A stretch of DNA of 38,624 bases, taken from Fimbriiglobus sp. (GTDB taxonomy: Bacteria; Planctomycetota; Planctomycetia; Gemmatales; Gemmataceae). Position 1 is the first letter of the stretch. Each line of letters begins with the position of its first letter. This document shows positions 4,348 to 13,552 of the stretch, piece by piece. The stretch spans positions 1 to 38,624 of the forward strand of contig JANXWE010000183.1 of NCBI GenBank assembly GCA_025351325.1, read 5' to 3'. The notes beneath the pieces are model-generated. The model had not been told where the DNA came from and searched no databases. It saw only the letters and a list, made by a program, of their open reading frames with translations. The position numbers and the translations under genes were made by a program.

Positions 4348-5415
4348 ATGTACGTTCACCAGACAACTCCGATTGTCGAGGGTGCGACGTTGGCACACAC
4401 ACTGCACGATGCAGCCGCTTGGATGAATGGAACCGTCGACGGTGACGGTGCGACCGTTTGGAACCGGGCCATGTCGCTGCTCGACGCCGAGTTGGGCGAT
4501 CTCGTGTTGATCGACAGTACAAAAAAAAATGACTCGTGGGCGAAATCAAAAGCCAGCGCTGCGGTGGTTCCCCTCGATTTCCCAGAAGGCGACCGGCCGT
4601 TGATCCGCGTGACGGAACCTCTCAAAGCTTACTTGCAGCTGATTCAAAAATTGCGTGGTGACCGCAGTGGCCCGCGAACAATCCATCCCACGGCCATCAT
4701 TGATCCGAGTGCTACGATCGGATCGAACGCCAGCATCGGGGCGTACGTCGTCATCGGTGCGGCCACGGTGATCGGCGACGATTGCACGATCCATCCCGGG
4801 GTCTGCATCGGGGCGCATTGCAGATTGGGACAGGCCAACACACTCCACCCCGGTGTGGTGCTCTACAACGATTCGATTTTGGGGAACCGCGTGGTGATCC
4901 ACGCCAAGAGTGTCATCGGGGCGGATGGCTATGGCTACCGGATCGAGGCGGGCCAGCACATCAAGGTTCCGCAACTCGGATATGTCGAAATCGGCGACGA
5001 TGTCGAAATCGGTGCCTCGGCCACCATTGACCGCGGAACCATCGGCCCGACCCGCATCGGCGCGGGAACGAAGATCGACAACTTGGTGATGATCGCACAC
5101 AATTGCCAGATCGGCGGGCACAATTTGATCGTGAGCCAAGTCGGCATCGCCGGTTCGACCACGACCGGCGACTATGTCGTGCTGGGTGGTCAAGTCGGCA
5201 TCGCCGACCATTTGCACATCGGGGAGCAATCGATGATCGGCGCCCAATGTGGGATCACGCAAGACATTCCAGCCAATTCCCGCATGGCCGGAACACCGGC
5301 CGTGCCCGTCTGGCAATATTTGCGCACGGCCACGCACGTCAAATCGTTGCCGGAACTGCGCCGCACCGTGGCTGAATTGAAGAAGAAATTTGAACTGCCC
5401 CGTGACGAATCATGA
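4348..5415 (+). CDS. lpxD: UDP-3-O-acylglucosamine N-acyltransferase
   Basis: LpxD transfers the second acyl chain from acyl carrier protein to the 2-amino group of UDP-3-O-acylglucosamine in lipid A synthesis, in the cytoplasm. The 355-residue protein has the N-terminal uridine-binding domain (about 1-105), then a left-handed beta helix of hexapeptide repeats from TIHPTAIIDPSATIG (111) to about 300, and a C-terminal helix. H251 in MIAHNCQIGGHN matches the catalytic His of E. coli LpxD. Length fits the family. It overlaps lpxI by four bases (ATGA), so translation is probably coupled. Codons 58-61 contain nine consecutive A residues (4521-4529), unusual in this G+C-rich gene. Neither lpxA nor fabZ, frequent neighbours of lpxD, is present here. 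Confidence 0.95.
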   Translation: MYVHQTTPIVEGATLAHTLHDAAAWMNGTVDGDGATVWNRAMSLLDAELGDLVLIDSTKKNDSWAKSKASAAVVPLDFPEGDRPLIRVTEPLKAYLQLIQKLRGDRSGPRTIHPTAIIDPSATIGSNASIGAYVVIGAATVIGDDCTIHPGVCIGAHCRLGQANTLHPGVVLYNDSILGNRVVIHAKSVIGADGYGYRIEAGQHIKVPQLGYVEIGDDVEIGASATIDRGTIGPTRIGAGTKIDNLVMIAHNCQIGGHNLIVSQVGIAGSTTTGDYVVLGGQVGIADHLHIGEQSMIGAQCGITQDIPANSRMAGTPAVPVWQYLRTATHVKSLPELRRTVAELKKKFELPRDES

Positions 5416-6269
5416 CGGTTCGTGCCCCCATTGGGTTGATCGCCGGCGCCGGCCGATTTCCAATTCTCTTGGCCACCAAGGCACGCGAACTCGGGATTCC
5501 GGTAGTTTGCATCGGCATCGCGGGGATGGCCGATCCAATCTTGGAACAGCTCTGCCCGAAGTTTTTCTGGCTCCGTCGCCTGTCGATGGGGTTCGTCATC
5601 CGTAGTTTTTGCCGCAACGGTGTGGCCGATTGGACGATGGCCGGAAAGTACCACAAAAAGCTGCTGTTCCGGCCCTGGATGTGGCTACGGATGATGCCCG
5701 ATTGGCGGGCCGGCCGCTTCTGGCTCTCGCGGTTACGGCGTGACAACAAAGACGATACCCTCTTGCTCGGCCTCATCGCCGAATTCGAACGGGATGGTTT
5801 GCACTGCGTCTCGGCGTTGGAACTTTGCCCGGAGTTACTCGTGAAAGCAGGTCAACTGACGAGTCGGGCGCCGACGGCGCAGGAATGGCTCGATATCGAT
5901 TTCGGCTGGACGCTGGCCCGCGAAATGGGCCGGCTCGACATCGGCCAAAGCGTGATGATCCGCAAGCGGGCGTGCCTCGCCGTCGAGGCGATCGAAGGGA
6001 CGGATCGCTGCATCGAACGGGCCGGGGAACTCTGTGGACGAGCCGGGTTCGTCGTGGTGAAGGTGGCCAAACCCAACCAAGATATGCGGTTCGATGTGCC
6101 GACGGTCGGCCCGGATACTGTCGAAACCATGCGAAAAGCTGGGGCGACTGTCCTGGCAATCGAAGCGGGTCAGACCATCATCATTGACGAGCCTGAGACG
6201 CTCGCACTCGCGAACAAGTATCACATGGCGATCATCGCTCGGGTCGATGGTGATGTTCAGGGACGCTAA
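5412..6269 (+). CDS. lpxI: UDP-2,3-diacylglucosamine pyrophosphatase LpxI
   Basis: LpxI cleaves UDP-2,3-diacylglucosamine to lipid X and UMP, replacing LpxH in many bacteria. The 285-residue protein begins PIGLIAGAGRFPILLATKARELG, the typical N-terminal start of the DUF1009/LpxI family. The C-terminal domain contains QSVMIRKRACLAVEAIEGTD and KVAKPNQDMRFDVPTVGPDT, which are highly characteristic. Length is normal. It shares ATGA with the lpxD stop, so the two lipid A enzymes are made together. The TAA stop is part of an 8-bp sequence duplicated on the far side of the adjacent mobile element, so the element inserted exactly behind the stop without truncating the protein. Confidence 0.94.
   Translation: MTVRAPIGLIAGAGRFPILLATKARELGIPVVCIGIAGMADPILEQLCPKFFWLRRLSMGFVIRSFCRNGVADWTMAGKYHKKLLFRPWMWLRMMPDWRAGRFWLSRLRRDNKDDTLLLGLIAEFERDGLHCVSALELCPELLVKAGQLTSRAPTAQEWLDIDFGWTLAREMGRLDIGQSVMIRKRACLAVEAIEGTDRCIERAGELCGRAGFVVVKVAKPNQDMRFDVPTVGPDTVETMRKAGATVLAIEAGQTIIIDEPETLALANKYHMAIIARVDGDVQGR
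6262..6269. repeat. Left 8-bp target site duplication of element A
   Basis: GACGCTAA at 6262-6269 recurs perfectly at 6439-6446, immediately outside both ends of the palindromic element. It covers the last Gly-Arg-stop bases of lpxI. This is what transposition with an 8-bp staggered cut leaves. Confidence 0.8.
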
Positions 6270-6438
6270 GGGTGTGCCAACGGATCTTGGAGTCTTCAAA
6301 ACCAAGAGGGACGCGGATGAGACCCGAGATGAAGAGGATCGGAAAGAAATTGATTTTTTTCTGATCCTGTACATCCTGCCTTTTTCCGCGTCGTCCGCGT
6401 CCCTCTCCATCTGGACTCCAAGAATTATTGGCACACCC
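6270..6438. mobile_element. MITE-like palindromic element A (169 bp)
   Basis: A 169-bp non-coding palindrome. The ends are perfect 11-bp terminal inverted repeats, GGGTGTGCCAA (6270-6280) and TTGGCACACCC (6428-6438). Homology continues inward after a 4-base mismatch as TCTTGGAGTC on both sides. Further in, both arms carry GAGGGACGCGGA. The centre is a hairpin of AGGATCGGAAA and TTTCTGATCCT around a T-rich loop. It is flanked by perfect 8-bp direct repeats. It has no open frame that looks coding, so it would need a transposase from elsewhere. A related copy lies at 13340-13544. The structure is direct observation; mobility is inferred from terminal repeats plus target duplication. Confidence 0.82.
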
Positions 6439-6446
6439 GACGCTAA
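6439..6446. repeat. Right 8-bp target site duplication of element A
   Basis: Second perfect copy of GACGCTAA, abutting the right terminal inverted repeat of the palindromic element. Confidence 0.8.
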
Positions 6447-9927: not shown

Positions 9928-12900
9928 TTATTTCACGGCGGTGTTCCACGCTCCGCCGGCGGTTTTGTACGCTTCTTTGAGCTGCGGGACTTCCTCGAAC
10001 AACTTCTGAAATTTGGCTTTCACGTCGTCGTTCAGCTCCGGATTCTTCTTTTCAATTTCGACGATTTGTTTGGCGAGGCCCGCCATCGCTTTATCCAATT
10101 CCGGTTTCTTTCCACCGTTGATTTGGAGTTGAGCACGGGTCAAACAGCGGACGAGTTCCGCGACGAGGTCGAAGTAGATTGGCTTGGCGAATTCCTTTTG
10201 CCGGCGGAGGTTCGAAACATCCTCTTCCTTAGCGGTCGCTGGCAATGCCGTGGTCAGAACTTTGAGGTATTCTCGACTCATGCCATCCCAACCTTTTTTC
10301 GCTTCTGCCCAAACCTTGGAAGCCTCTTGTGGGTTGGCAATGCCGGCCGCCTTCGCCTCCAGGTAATAAAATTCTTCTCTCCGGAATTCCGGATACTTGT
10401 ATGCCCAGCCACTCCTTCGATCTTTGCCCAGCGACGCTTCGAGAAGTTCCTCGGCCTTCGGCAGTTGATTGGCGAGCCGATAGGTTCGAATCAGTTCCAG
10501 TTGGGCCACACGGTAGAACGGCGTCGCGGCTTTGTCCGCTGTCCAGGCGGCGTCCGGTGCGGCCGGTTGCGGTGGTTCGGCTTTCAGAAAGGCGAGATTC
10601 TTCGGTGCGGGAATTTTCAAGAGCAACGCGATGCCTTTATCGTAGTCGCCCAGCTCCTTGAAGATCTTCCCGAGATCCAGCAACTGAACTGGGGTCAATT
10701 TCGCATCCGCTCCACTGATGCGTGCCGCCAATGCGGAGAGATTCGCAGAGACTTTTTTCGCCTCGTCGGCCTTACCGTCTTTCACCAGTTGTTCGATTTG
10801 CGGCTTGGCCGCCACGACGACTTGAAAAACCGCATTCACGGTCTGGTTCTGGTCGCCACCGAATTTGCCGAGCATATCGAGCAGTTTGGCGGCTTCGTCG
10901 AGTTGACCTTCGCCGACGCGGCTGTTCAACGCGGGAACTACGATCTTGCTGATCCGGAGGGCATCCAAATTCTTGGCGACCGTAGCCACGTTGGGTGCTT
11001 GATCCTTTTTCACCGCCGGACCGCTCTTTTGCATCGCTGCGATTAAACCCTTGTAGCGATCCGCCGATTCTTTGTACTTCTTCTGTTGGTGCAGCGGCAT
11101 CGCTTGCCCGTAGACCGCGTTGATCCTTACGATCTCCGCTTCGCAGAGCAGCGACTCTTTATCGGCCGACTGAACCGTTGCCAAAGTTGGAATCAGCGCA
11201 GTGACATCGTTGCTGATCTTTTCGGCGACGGGGTAGCCCGTGGCACCGCTGGCCAAATAGAGTTGCGCGAGTTGAAACTGGACCCGGCAATAATCGATGG
11301 CGACGGTTGCGGGTGATGTTGCCGAGGCGACCGGAACCCGGCCGAGATCGGTCGTGGCGGTTTGGAATATTGGAACTTTTTGGGCATCGGTTGGCAGGGC
11401 GAACTTCGGTGGTGCCGCGTTGGCGGAACGCGGACGGAGCAATTCGAATGCGACGCCCCCCTGCAAGAGCCGCGCCCGTCCCACGTTCGAGTAGCGATCC
11501 GAGACGCGGTCGAGCAATTGGAACGCTTCGAGATAAAGTGCGCTTTGAACCAACATCTGCGACCCGCGGAATCGGACTTCATCGGTCGTGGGGTCGTTGG
11601 GGTTGGACTGATCGAGAAATTGCACGACGCTCATCGCCTTGGCGAGGTCGGTTTGTCGACTCACCGAGTCTTCCGAATCGGCCTTCTCCGCCGCTTCTTG
11701 ATATGCCAGCACGGCGTTCAATCCCGCCTTGACCGCCGTCGGCCCTTGACTCGTTCGGGCCAAGAATTCGCCGAGCACAGCGGCTTGGTACGCTTGGCCG
11801 GCCAAGCGGTAGGTATACACGAGCATCACTTGGCTACTCAGGGAATCGCGGAGCGATTCCTTCGGCACGGGCAATTGCTTTTCGCGTTCGAGCAGTGCGA
11901 TCACCCGATCCAGCTGCCCCTTCTTTTGTTCCGGGGTGGCTTTGTCGTCCTTGTTCAATTGCTGAAACTTGTCGATTTGAACGAGAGATGTCAAGTGGCA
12001 TTCCTCGAACGTCAAAATCTGCTCGGGTTTCTTATCGGCATTGCCGACGATCAGTCGCACGACTTGCGGCCGCATTTTCGCGGCCCGCGCCGTGTACTCA
12101 TTCTCGCTGTCGGCGAGCCGGCGAAGGTCTCGATCCGCGTCCTTGAGCAGGGGCAATACGGCCGGGTTCACCGTGACCACCATGGTCTTCGGGTCGACCT
12201 TCACCCCGAGTCGGGCTTCGTCGAACTTGGTCGTCGCGGTGTAATACAGGATCGCGTAGTTTTCGTTGGTGATGCGTGAGCTGCGGTAGTCGGCCACCCA
12301 AGCTTCGCAGAGCTTGCGAACACTCGAATAGGCCGCGGCCGTGTTCTCTTTGCTGGCGATGATCCATTTGTTGCGGATCTCGAAGAAACGGGCCTGACGC
12401 ACGCCCGCCAGACCCACGCCGTTCGGTATTTTTGCCGCATCGGTGCGAATCTTGGCGAACGTGGTCTCCGCTTTGATTGTTTCGCTCATCGCGTACGAGC
12501 ATTCGCCGGCCCAGGCGCGAGCGACCCAGCAGAGCGAATGAGTCGCATCGCGTTCCCCGAGTTTCGCGAAGATATCCTGAGCACTCTTGTACGCGGCGGC
12601 ACGATCTTCAATGTCCTGTTTGCCTTCGACCGCGATATACGACTCGGCAAGGAAATAGCGGTTGATGCCCTGGTCGAGGATCGTCTGGTACAGTTCGCCG
12701 CTGCGGCTCAGTTTTAGGTTTGGCGTCGCCGCATCCTTCACCGCTTGCTCGAGTGTTTCAGCGGCTTTTTGAAACCTCGTCGAGGCTTCGATGAAGTATG
12801 GTCGAGCGATTGCAGCCGCAGTTTTCTGACCCGCGACATCGGGAAGTTTCCTGGCCCGATCCAGCTGCGATTTGCCTTGGAGCGACGAAATATTCGCCAG

Positions 12901-13248
12901 CGACATGGTCGCTTCCACAGCGCGCGGGTGACCGGCATTCGCCTTCAAGAATTGATCGAGTTCCGCTTTCGCCTCGTTCACGGCGGTGTCGCGTTTGAGA
13001 TCGTCCGCTTCCTGGGCCGCGAGTTTGATGCGCGACTTGGCTCGTTCGATGGGGAGCGTGACCAGCAACTCTTTCGGTAGAGTTTTCGCCAAATCATCAA
13101 GGTATTCGAGCGCCAGATCGGGTTGATCGTTTTCACGCAACGCTCGGGCCAATTCGAACGGGTTTTGAGCACCCGATTCTTGAGCTAACGCGCCAAGTGC
13201 GAGCACGACCAACGCGAGGCAAGTCCAACAACAAAGAAGCCGAGACAT
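9928..13248 (-). CDS. Very large secreted TPR-like protein, 1106 aa
   Basis: A 1106-residue exported protein. Residues 1-22 form a signal peptide (MSRLLCCWTCLALVVLALGA) with likely cleavage after ALA. The mature chain is almost entirely alpha-helical repeats, for example PFELARALRENDQPDLALEYLDDL near the start and LLDLGKIFKELGDYDKGIALLLKI around residue 870, the spacing expected of tetratricopeptide-like units. Such proteins normally act as scaffolds. AGGA lies 9 bases before the ATG at 13248; the frame opens at 13350 without a signal. The smaller secreted repeat protein follows 47 bp downstream. Nothing identifies a specific process. Confidence 0.78.
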   Translation of the reverse strand: MSRLLCCWTCLALVVLALGALAQESGAQNPFELARALRENDQPDLALEYLDDLAKTLPKELLVTLPIERAKSRIKLAAQEADDLKRDTAVNEAKAELDQFLKANAGHPRAVEATMSLANISSLQGKSQLDRARKLPDVAGQKTAAAIARPYFIEASTRFQKAAETLEQAVKDAATPNLKLSRSGELYQTILDQGINRYFLAESYIAVEGKQDIEDRAAAYKSAQDIFAKLGERDATHSLCWVARAWAGECSYAMSETIKAETTFAKIRTDAAKIPNGVGLAGVRQARFFEIRNKWIIASKENTAAAYSSVRKLCEAWVADYRSSRITNENYAILYYTATTKFDEARLGVKVDPKTMVVTVNPAVLPLLKDADRDLRRLADSENEYTARAAKMRPQVVRLIVGNADKKPEQILTFEECHLTSLVQIDKFQQLNKDDKATPEQKKGQLDRVIALLEREKQLPVPKESLRDSLSSQVMLVYTYRLAGQAYQAAVLGEFLARTSQGPTAVKAGLNAVLAYQEAAEKADSEDSVSRQTDLAKAMSVVQFLDQSNPNDPTTDEVRFRGSQMLVQSALYLEAFQLLDRVSDRYSNVGRARLLQGGVAFELLRPRSANAAPPKFALPTDAQKVPIFQTATTDLGRVPVASATSPATVAIDYCRVQFQLAQLYLASGATGYPVAEKISNDVTALIPTLATVQSADKESLLCEAEIVRINAVYGQAMPLHQQKKYKESADRYKGLIAAMQKSGPAVKKDQAPNVATVAKNLDALRISKIVVPALNSRVGEGQLDEAAKLLDMLGKFGGDQNQTVNAVFQVVVAAKPQIEQLVKDGKADEAKKVSANLSALAARISGADAKLTPVQLLDLGKIFKELGDYDKGIALLLKIPAPKNLAFLKAEPPQPAAPDAAWTADKAATPFYRVAQLELIRTYRLANQLPKAEELLEASLGKDRRSGWAYKYPEFRREEFYYLEAKAAGIANPQEASKVWAEAKKGWDGMSREYLKVLTTALPATAKEEDVSNLRRQKEFAKPIYFDLVAELVRCLTRAQLQINGGKKPELDKAMAGLAKQIVEIEKKNPELNDDVKAKFQKLFEEVPQLKEAYKTAGGAWNTAVK

Positions 13249-13331
13249 GGAGTGGTTCCTGCGACAAACGACCTGCGATTCAGAAAGGTTACCATATTCT
13301 ACGCGGCTGCAATTGTGTAAGTTCCCGAAAG

Positions 13332-13339
13332 CTGCTGAC
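13332..13339. repeat. Left 8-bp imperfect target duplication of element B
   Basis: CTGCTGAC here and CTGCGGAC at 13545-13552 differ at one of eight positions and flank the second palindromic element directly. The mismatch fits an older insertion. Confidence 0.6.
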
Positions 13340-13544
13340 GGGTGTGCCAACGATTCTTGGAGGCTTTATAAAATCCAGAGGAACGCGGATGACGCGGATG
13401 ATACCCGGGATGAAGAGGATCAGAAAGAAATCAATTTTTTCTGATCCTCTTCATGCTGCTTGTTCCCGCGTCATCCGCGTTCCTCTTCATCTGAGCTTGG
13501 TGACGTTGTGATGGAAACAACCTCCAAGAATCGTTGGTACACCA
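13340..13544. mobile_element. MITE-like palindromic element B (205 bp)
   Basis: A second member of the family seen at 6270-6438. The left end GGGTGTGCCAACGATTCTTG and the right end, read in reverse as GTGGTGTACCAACGATTCTT, are inverted repeats continuing through GGAGG. Both arms hold GAGGAACGCGGATGACGCGG. The centre is a perfect 17-bp stem: 13410-13426 pairs with 13438-13454 around an 11-base A/T-rich loop. Relative to element A it is about 36 bp longer, mostly because the right arm contains an unpaired stretch near 13495-13520. One-mismatch 8-bp direct repeats flank it. It lies between the 1106-residue repeat gene and surE and has no coding capacity. Confidence 0.78.
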
Positions 13545-13552
13545 CTGCGGAC
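13545..13552. repeat. Right 8-bp imperfect target duplication of element B
   Basis: CTGCGGAC directly outside the right end of the element; partner of CTGCTGAC at 13332-13339, seven of eight bases identical. Confidence 0.6.

Follow-up and report, generated by a model that had tools for sequence, protein, structure and literature searches.

The 169-bp palindrome at the stop codon of lpxI, in a 38.6-kb stretch of Fimbriiglobus DNA (herein the window, meaning the whole stretch analyzed), is most probably a composite (probability roughly 0.87): a non-autonomous MITE with ends of the ISKra4 family (ISMich2-like, p-MULT 4) that has enclosed a palindromic intergenic repeat as its interior. The identification of positions 6270-6438 as a MITE is solid, and the reading of its interior as foreign cargo, a separate repeat enclosed by ISKra4-type ends, is well supported. 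The features in the window are as follows.

5412..6269, + strand: lpxI, intact despite the insertion
6262..6269, no strand: left target-site duplication (TSD) GACGCTAA, which includes the lpxI stop codon TAA
6270-6438, 169 bp: MITE, palindromic, with exact 8-bp direct repeats on either side
6270..6294, + strand: left terminal inverted repeat (TIR) GGGTGTGCCAACGGATCTTGGAGTC, with the 11 outermost bp matching the right end perfectly
6305..6406, no strand: palindromic core of foreign origin (AGAGGGACGCGGATGA...CCGCGTCCCTCT); this repeat is present without TIRs elsewhere
6414..6438, - strand: right TIR
6439..6446, no strand: right TSD GACGCTAA
13332-13339 and 13545-13552: TSD of the second copy, CTGCTGAC and CTGCGGAC, matching at 7 of 8 positions
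13340..13544, + strand: second member of the family, longer at 205 bp

The gene 5′ of the element is lpxI (Pfam LpxI_N and LpxI_C), a lipid A gene, and is itself preceded by an lpxD-like gene. The ends of the palindrome read GGGTGTGCCAA (the TIR motif is also written GGGTGTNNCAACGATTCTTGGAG); pairing between 6270-6294 and 6414-6438 is perfect for 11 bp and holds at 21 of 25 positions (4 mismatches). Scanning the window for inverted-repeat arms spaced 50 to 400 bp apart identified this as the sole site where an 11-bp inverted repeat stands flush against an exact 8-bp direct repeat; no such structure arose in 200 mononucleotide shuffles of the window. The perfect 11-bp TIRs and exact 8-bp duplication reported in the first-pass annotation are thus confirmed. 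So is its statement that the insertion spared LpxI: as the TAA lies within the duplicated octamer, the reading frame, the stop, and the protein are unchanged.

The single strand of the element has a predicted folding energy of −96.5 kcal/mol (z = −11). Such a stable fold at a gene end could indicate a functional hairpin 3′ of lpxI, a terminator or regulatory RNA, in place of a mobile element. We regard this as very improbable: it leaves out the target duplications and the scattered copies described below, and it predicts conservation at lpxI in relatives, whereas the hairpin is absent there in a second Fimbriiglobus MAG (JANXTU01; herein G002). A search of Rfam gave no family above threshold, the sub-threshold matches being to plant miRNAs only, as is typical of any long hairpin. 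The hairpin of an inserted MITE may have a secondary effect on transcription.

Searching the window's own genome (5.09 Mb, 382 contigs), as had been proposed earlier, returned 64 nucleotide matches at ~40 places. Members of the family are 77 to 410 bp long, noncoding, and multicopy; the second copy in the window lies at the upstream end of a large minus-strand ORF (9928-13350). From the two related genomes, that of the window and G002, 48 non-redundant elements with both ends were compiled, a biased sample because the TIR served both to find and to define them. Exact flanking repeats of 7 to 11 bp accompany 28 of these 48 complete elements, compared with 4 of 2256 mismatched left/right flank pairs; the TSD is exactly 8 bp, without offset, in 15 elements and 9 bp in 5. 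Among the independent TSDs are AGAAGTGA, GTCGCCGG, ATACTTTA, and CTGAAATA. In G002 the lpxI ortholog is followed by matching downstream sequence without an intervening element, an empty syntenic site that comes from another species (LpxI 79% identical) and not from a with/without strain pair. The related copies, the TSDs at unrelated points, and the empty site bear out the original description of a MITE-like insertion with target duplication.

No specificity for stop codons is claimed: of 43 elements, 7 have the stop of a long ORF no more than 10 bp away, a count from crude ORF calls without a proper null. In three copies (L004, L009, and L011) extra unrelated junction sequence (GAGAGATGGAATTTTGTCCAAATAGTTG...), perhaps another repeat, is joined to the inner part of the element.

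A scan of GTDB r220 for the TIR pattern GGGTNTNNCAACGATTCTTGGAG matched Fimbriiglobus sp. 339R, Limnoglobus sp. 341R, and one Verrucomicrobiaceae contig (L148); the last has one TIR and, over the sequence read, no partner for it, and was taken as a chance match. In the draft Limnoglobus MAG, the same ends enclose a 1513-bp insertion sequence (IS) with 27-bp perfect TIRs, assembled from two contig ends (L143 and L142) with a 102-bp overlap; its flanks share GCAAATCCA (9-bp TSD). ORF1 (100 aa) of this IS overlaps ORF2, which is in the −1 frame, at GAAAAAAAG, and the two transposase ORFs are probably joined by a −1 frameshift predicted at that site. The encoded DDE transposase has D132, D212, and E327 invariant in five relatives. 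Its best match is NF033572 (ISKra4; E = 3.9e-53, 181 bits), and, because this score lies below the NCBIfam cut-off of 205 bits, the family name draws also on the TIR, the TSD, and the frameshift.

G002 has an 83%-identical transposase in pieces; at two places an identical TIR lies 27 bp away from its C-terminal end. The TIRs are common to the window element, the 1513-bp ISKra4-like IS, and the G002 transposase pieces. The transposase relic retained in the window's own genome is 79% identical at the nucleotide level across 460 bp; it is interrupted by a stop and a frameshift and lacks TIRs, and no intact IS with these ends was found in that genome. The family looks inactive in this genome now, as the broken relic is the only transposase found and the copies are 82 to 90% identical. 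It appears to have been active more recently in G002 and to be decaying in the window's genome, since main-type elements in G002 have a median identity of 96% vs. the 82 to 90% of window-type copies.

Similarity and published group features place the partner IS, as a candidate assignment made from sequence, in the ISKra4 family, ISMich2-like (p-MULT 4, Mutator-like). The ISMich2 group/p-MULT 4, known from Planctomycetes, has 8-9-bp direct repeats, 18-39-bp inverted repeats, and a −1 frameshift (Guerillot et al. 2014, PMC3942029). The IS has a 27-bp TIR and the 9-bp GCAAATCCA, the MITEs have 8-9-bp duplications, and the resemblance extends to the two-ORF transposase with its −1 frameshift and to the planctomycete host. 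The window element differs from the group in having no transposase and an unrelated interior.

IS66, ISL3, IS256, and IS1595 all make 8-bp duplications, and these four families had been named in the first-pass annotation as possible sources of the transposase; moreover, IS256 and the ISKra4 family fall within one Mutator-like superfamily (PMC3942029). A transposase from any of them is extremely improbable. The sole full-length element found with these ends has an ISKra4-like transposase, and the 9-bp TSDs of part of the copies, together with the −1 frameshift, are the ISMich2/p-MULT 4 pattern. Among the elements encountered, none of the four was met with these ends. The earlier reading therefore stands for the MITE at the lpxI stop and falls for its transposase candidates; the interior as a separate repeat had gone unnoticed. 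A REP/RAYT (Y1 transposase) system is unlikely as an explanation because of the TSDs and the DDE partner.

All 48 elements match the 1513-bp IS at their ends only. Internal deletion of the IS, by which bacterial MITEs classically arise (although not every definition requires it), was rejected on this ground; at least six unrelated interiors, mostly palindromic, stand behind the one TIR. The core of the window element (AGAGGGACGCGGATGA...TCGTCCGCGTCCCTCT) occurs without TIRs at several places in its own genome (L271, L273, L275, and L277-L281). The core string CGCGGATGACGCGGA is found in other Gemmataceae 34, 23, and 12 times (genomes G070, G083, and G001, respectively), with 0 occurrences of its reversed control in the same three genomes, and no TIRs were found around 20 core copies fetched from other Gemmataceae. 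Another interior, core C (GTTAACCCGATGCGCAAGCATCGG), is a high-copy palindrome with ~30 copies in the window's genome, mostly outside recognized TIR elements. It is confined to that genome among the 61 searched; therefore, not every enclosed core is widespread.

In the MITE reading, the IS transposase would recognize in trans the TIR (23-27 bp), and 8 or 9 bp of the target would be duplicated on insertion. A pre-existing palindromic intergenic repeat would have been enclosed by the TIRs and then multiplied with them. This composite may have arisen by capture, or the palindrome may have inserted into a TIR element, with co-amplification following in either case; the data fit both.

Like bacterial MITEs, the window element is shorter than 300 bp, noncoding, and multicopy, with TIRs and TSDs as in a larger IS; unlike them, its interior is no deletion derivative of that IS, and one TIR is combined with several unrelated interiors. 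In eukaryotic Mutator-like elements and Pack-MULEs (e.g., maize Mu), the TIRs are conserved, the internal sequences unrelated, and the TSDs 9 bp long (PMC3276141). The transposase superfamily is the same, as is the occurrence of one TIR with unrelated interiors, but the TIRs here are 23 to 27 bp long vs. 50 to 200 bp. Foreign sequence within Mutator-type TIRs, together with TIR-free copies of the core elsewhere in the same genome, constitutes a Pack-MULE-like arrangement in which the cargo is a palindromic repeat, not a gene fragment; the likeness is one of pattern. Eukaryotic Mutator elements are known for many unrelated interiors behind their ends, and here a prokaryotic Mutator-like transposon shows the same; an unnamed repeat family gains a candidate source of transposition activity.

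How the core entered is a separate matter, for which there is a second account, compatible with the MITE reading. The core might itself be mobile, as a gene-less palindrome of the type found around GxxExxY genes, and have entered a TIR element, the composite then being amplified by the IS transposase. Stand-alone cores in the window's genome favor this, as does a window-family copy (L274, G000:C180:1700-2500) with core C, a second and unrelated palindromic repeat, inside its hairpin loop. So does a GxxExxY gene in the same genome (TIGR04256; Pfam PDDEXK_3), which sits between inverted arms (GAACACGGATGACACGGATCTAAGGCAAGATGAAGAGGATCA) similar to the core. The upstream arm of this gene scores 18.5 and 21 against the two window cores (500 shuffles, ≤14.5); against a further copy (L025) it did not rise above its shuffles. 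The 8-9-bp duplications, however, lie exactly at the TIR ends and not at the core ends, which makes the TIRs responsible for the last move; inspection by eye revealed no duplication around the stand-alone cores. Entry of a mobile core is, in our judgment, possible but somewhat doubtful.

When the two flanks of each GxxExxY gene are compared for inverted matches, the median score over 38 Planctomycetota loci is 19.5, and 28 of them score at least 14.5, compared with at most 13.5 at 17 lpxI loci and a 95% point of 16.5 for mismatched flanks. Arms of the same kind (e.g., TTCACCACAGAGGACGCAGAGGACACGGAG) flank plasmid-borne GxxExxY genes in Bacteroides, Bernardetia, Sphingomonas, and Gemmatirosa; the arms are weak in Treponema, and none were found at the plasmid-borne gene of Persicobacter. 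Most GxxExxY genes examined are flanked by such inverted arms, the loci being the following.

L211-L217, L219, most of L242-L265, L289, L290, L293, L294: GxxExxY loci with inverted arms

We found no published description of GxxExxY genes between inverted arms; among the papers searched, no relevant one has the arm strings, and only two mention GxxExxY. We hypothesize that the GxxExxY protein acts on the arms. The full version of such an element would be a PD-(D/E)XK nuclease-like GxxExxY gene between arms of 8-10-bp near-repeats (CACAGAGGACACAGAGG, CACGGATGACACGGAT, and variants). Tentatively, and from sequence comparison, the core could belong to a cross-phylum class of palindromes propagated by the GxxExxY nuclease, in which gene-less palindromes would be its non-autonomous derivatives and one of them would have been enclosed by ISKra4 ends. 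If true, GxxExxY palindromes would represent a selfish element of a kind not described before. With periodic inverted arms beside GxxExxY in several phyla, the role of a common but little-studied protein family becomes testable. What takes this element beyond the routine is the multiplicity of interiors behind one TIR, together with its core's link to GxxExxY palindromes.

Inverted arms composed of 8-10-bp near-repeats (e.g., CCACAGAGGCACAGAGACACAGAG) accompany GxxExxY (PDDEXK_3) in several phyla. In Sphingomonas, the GxxExxY gene and its arms lie between fabD and fabG.
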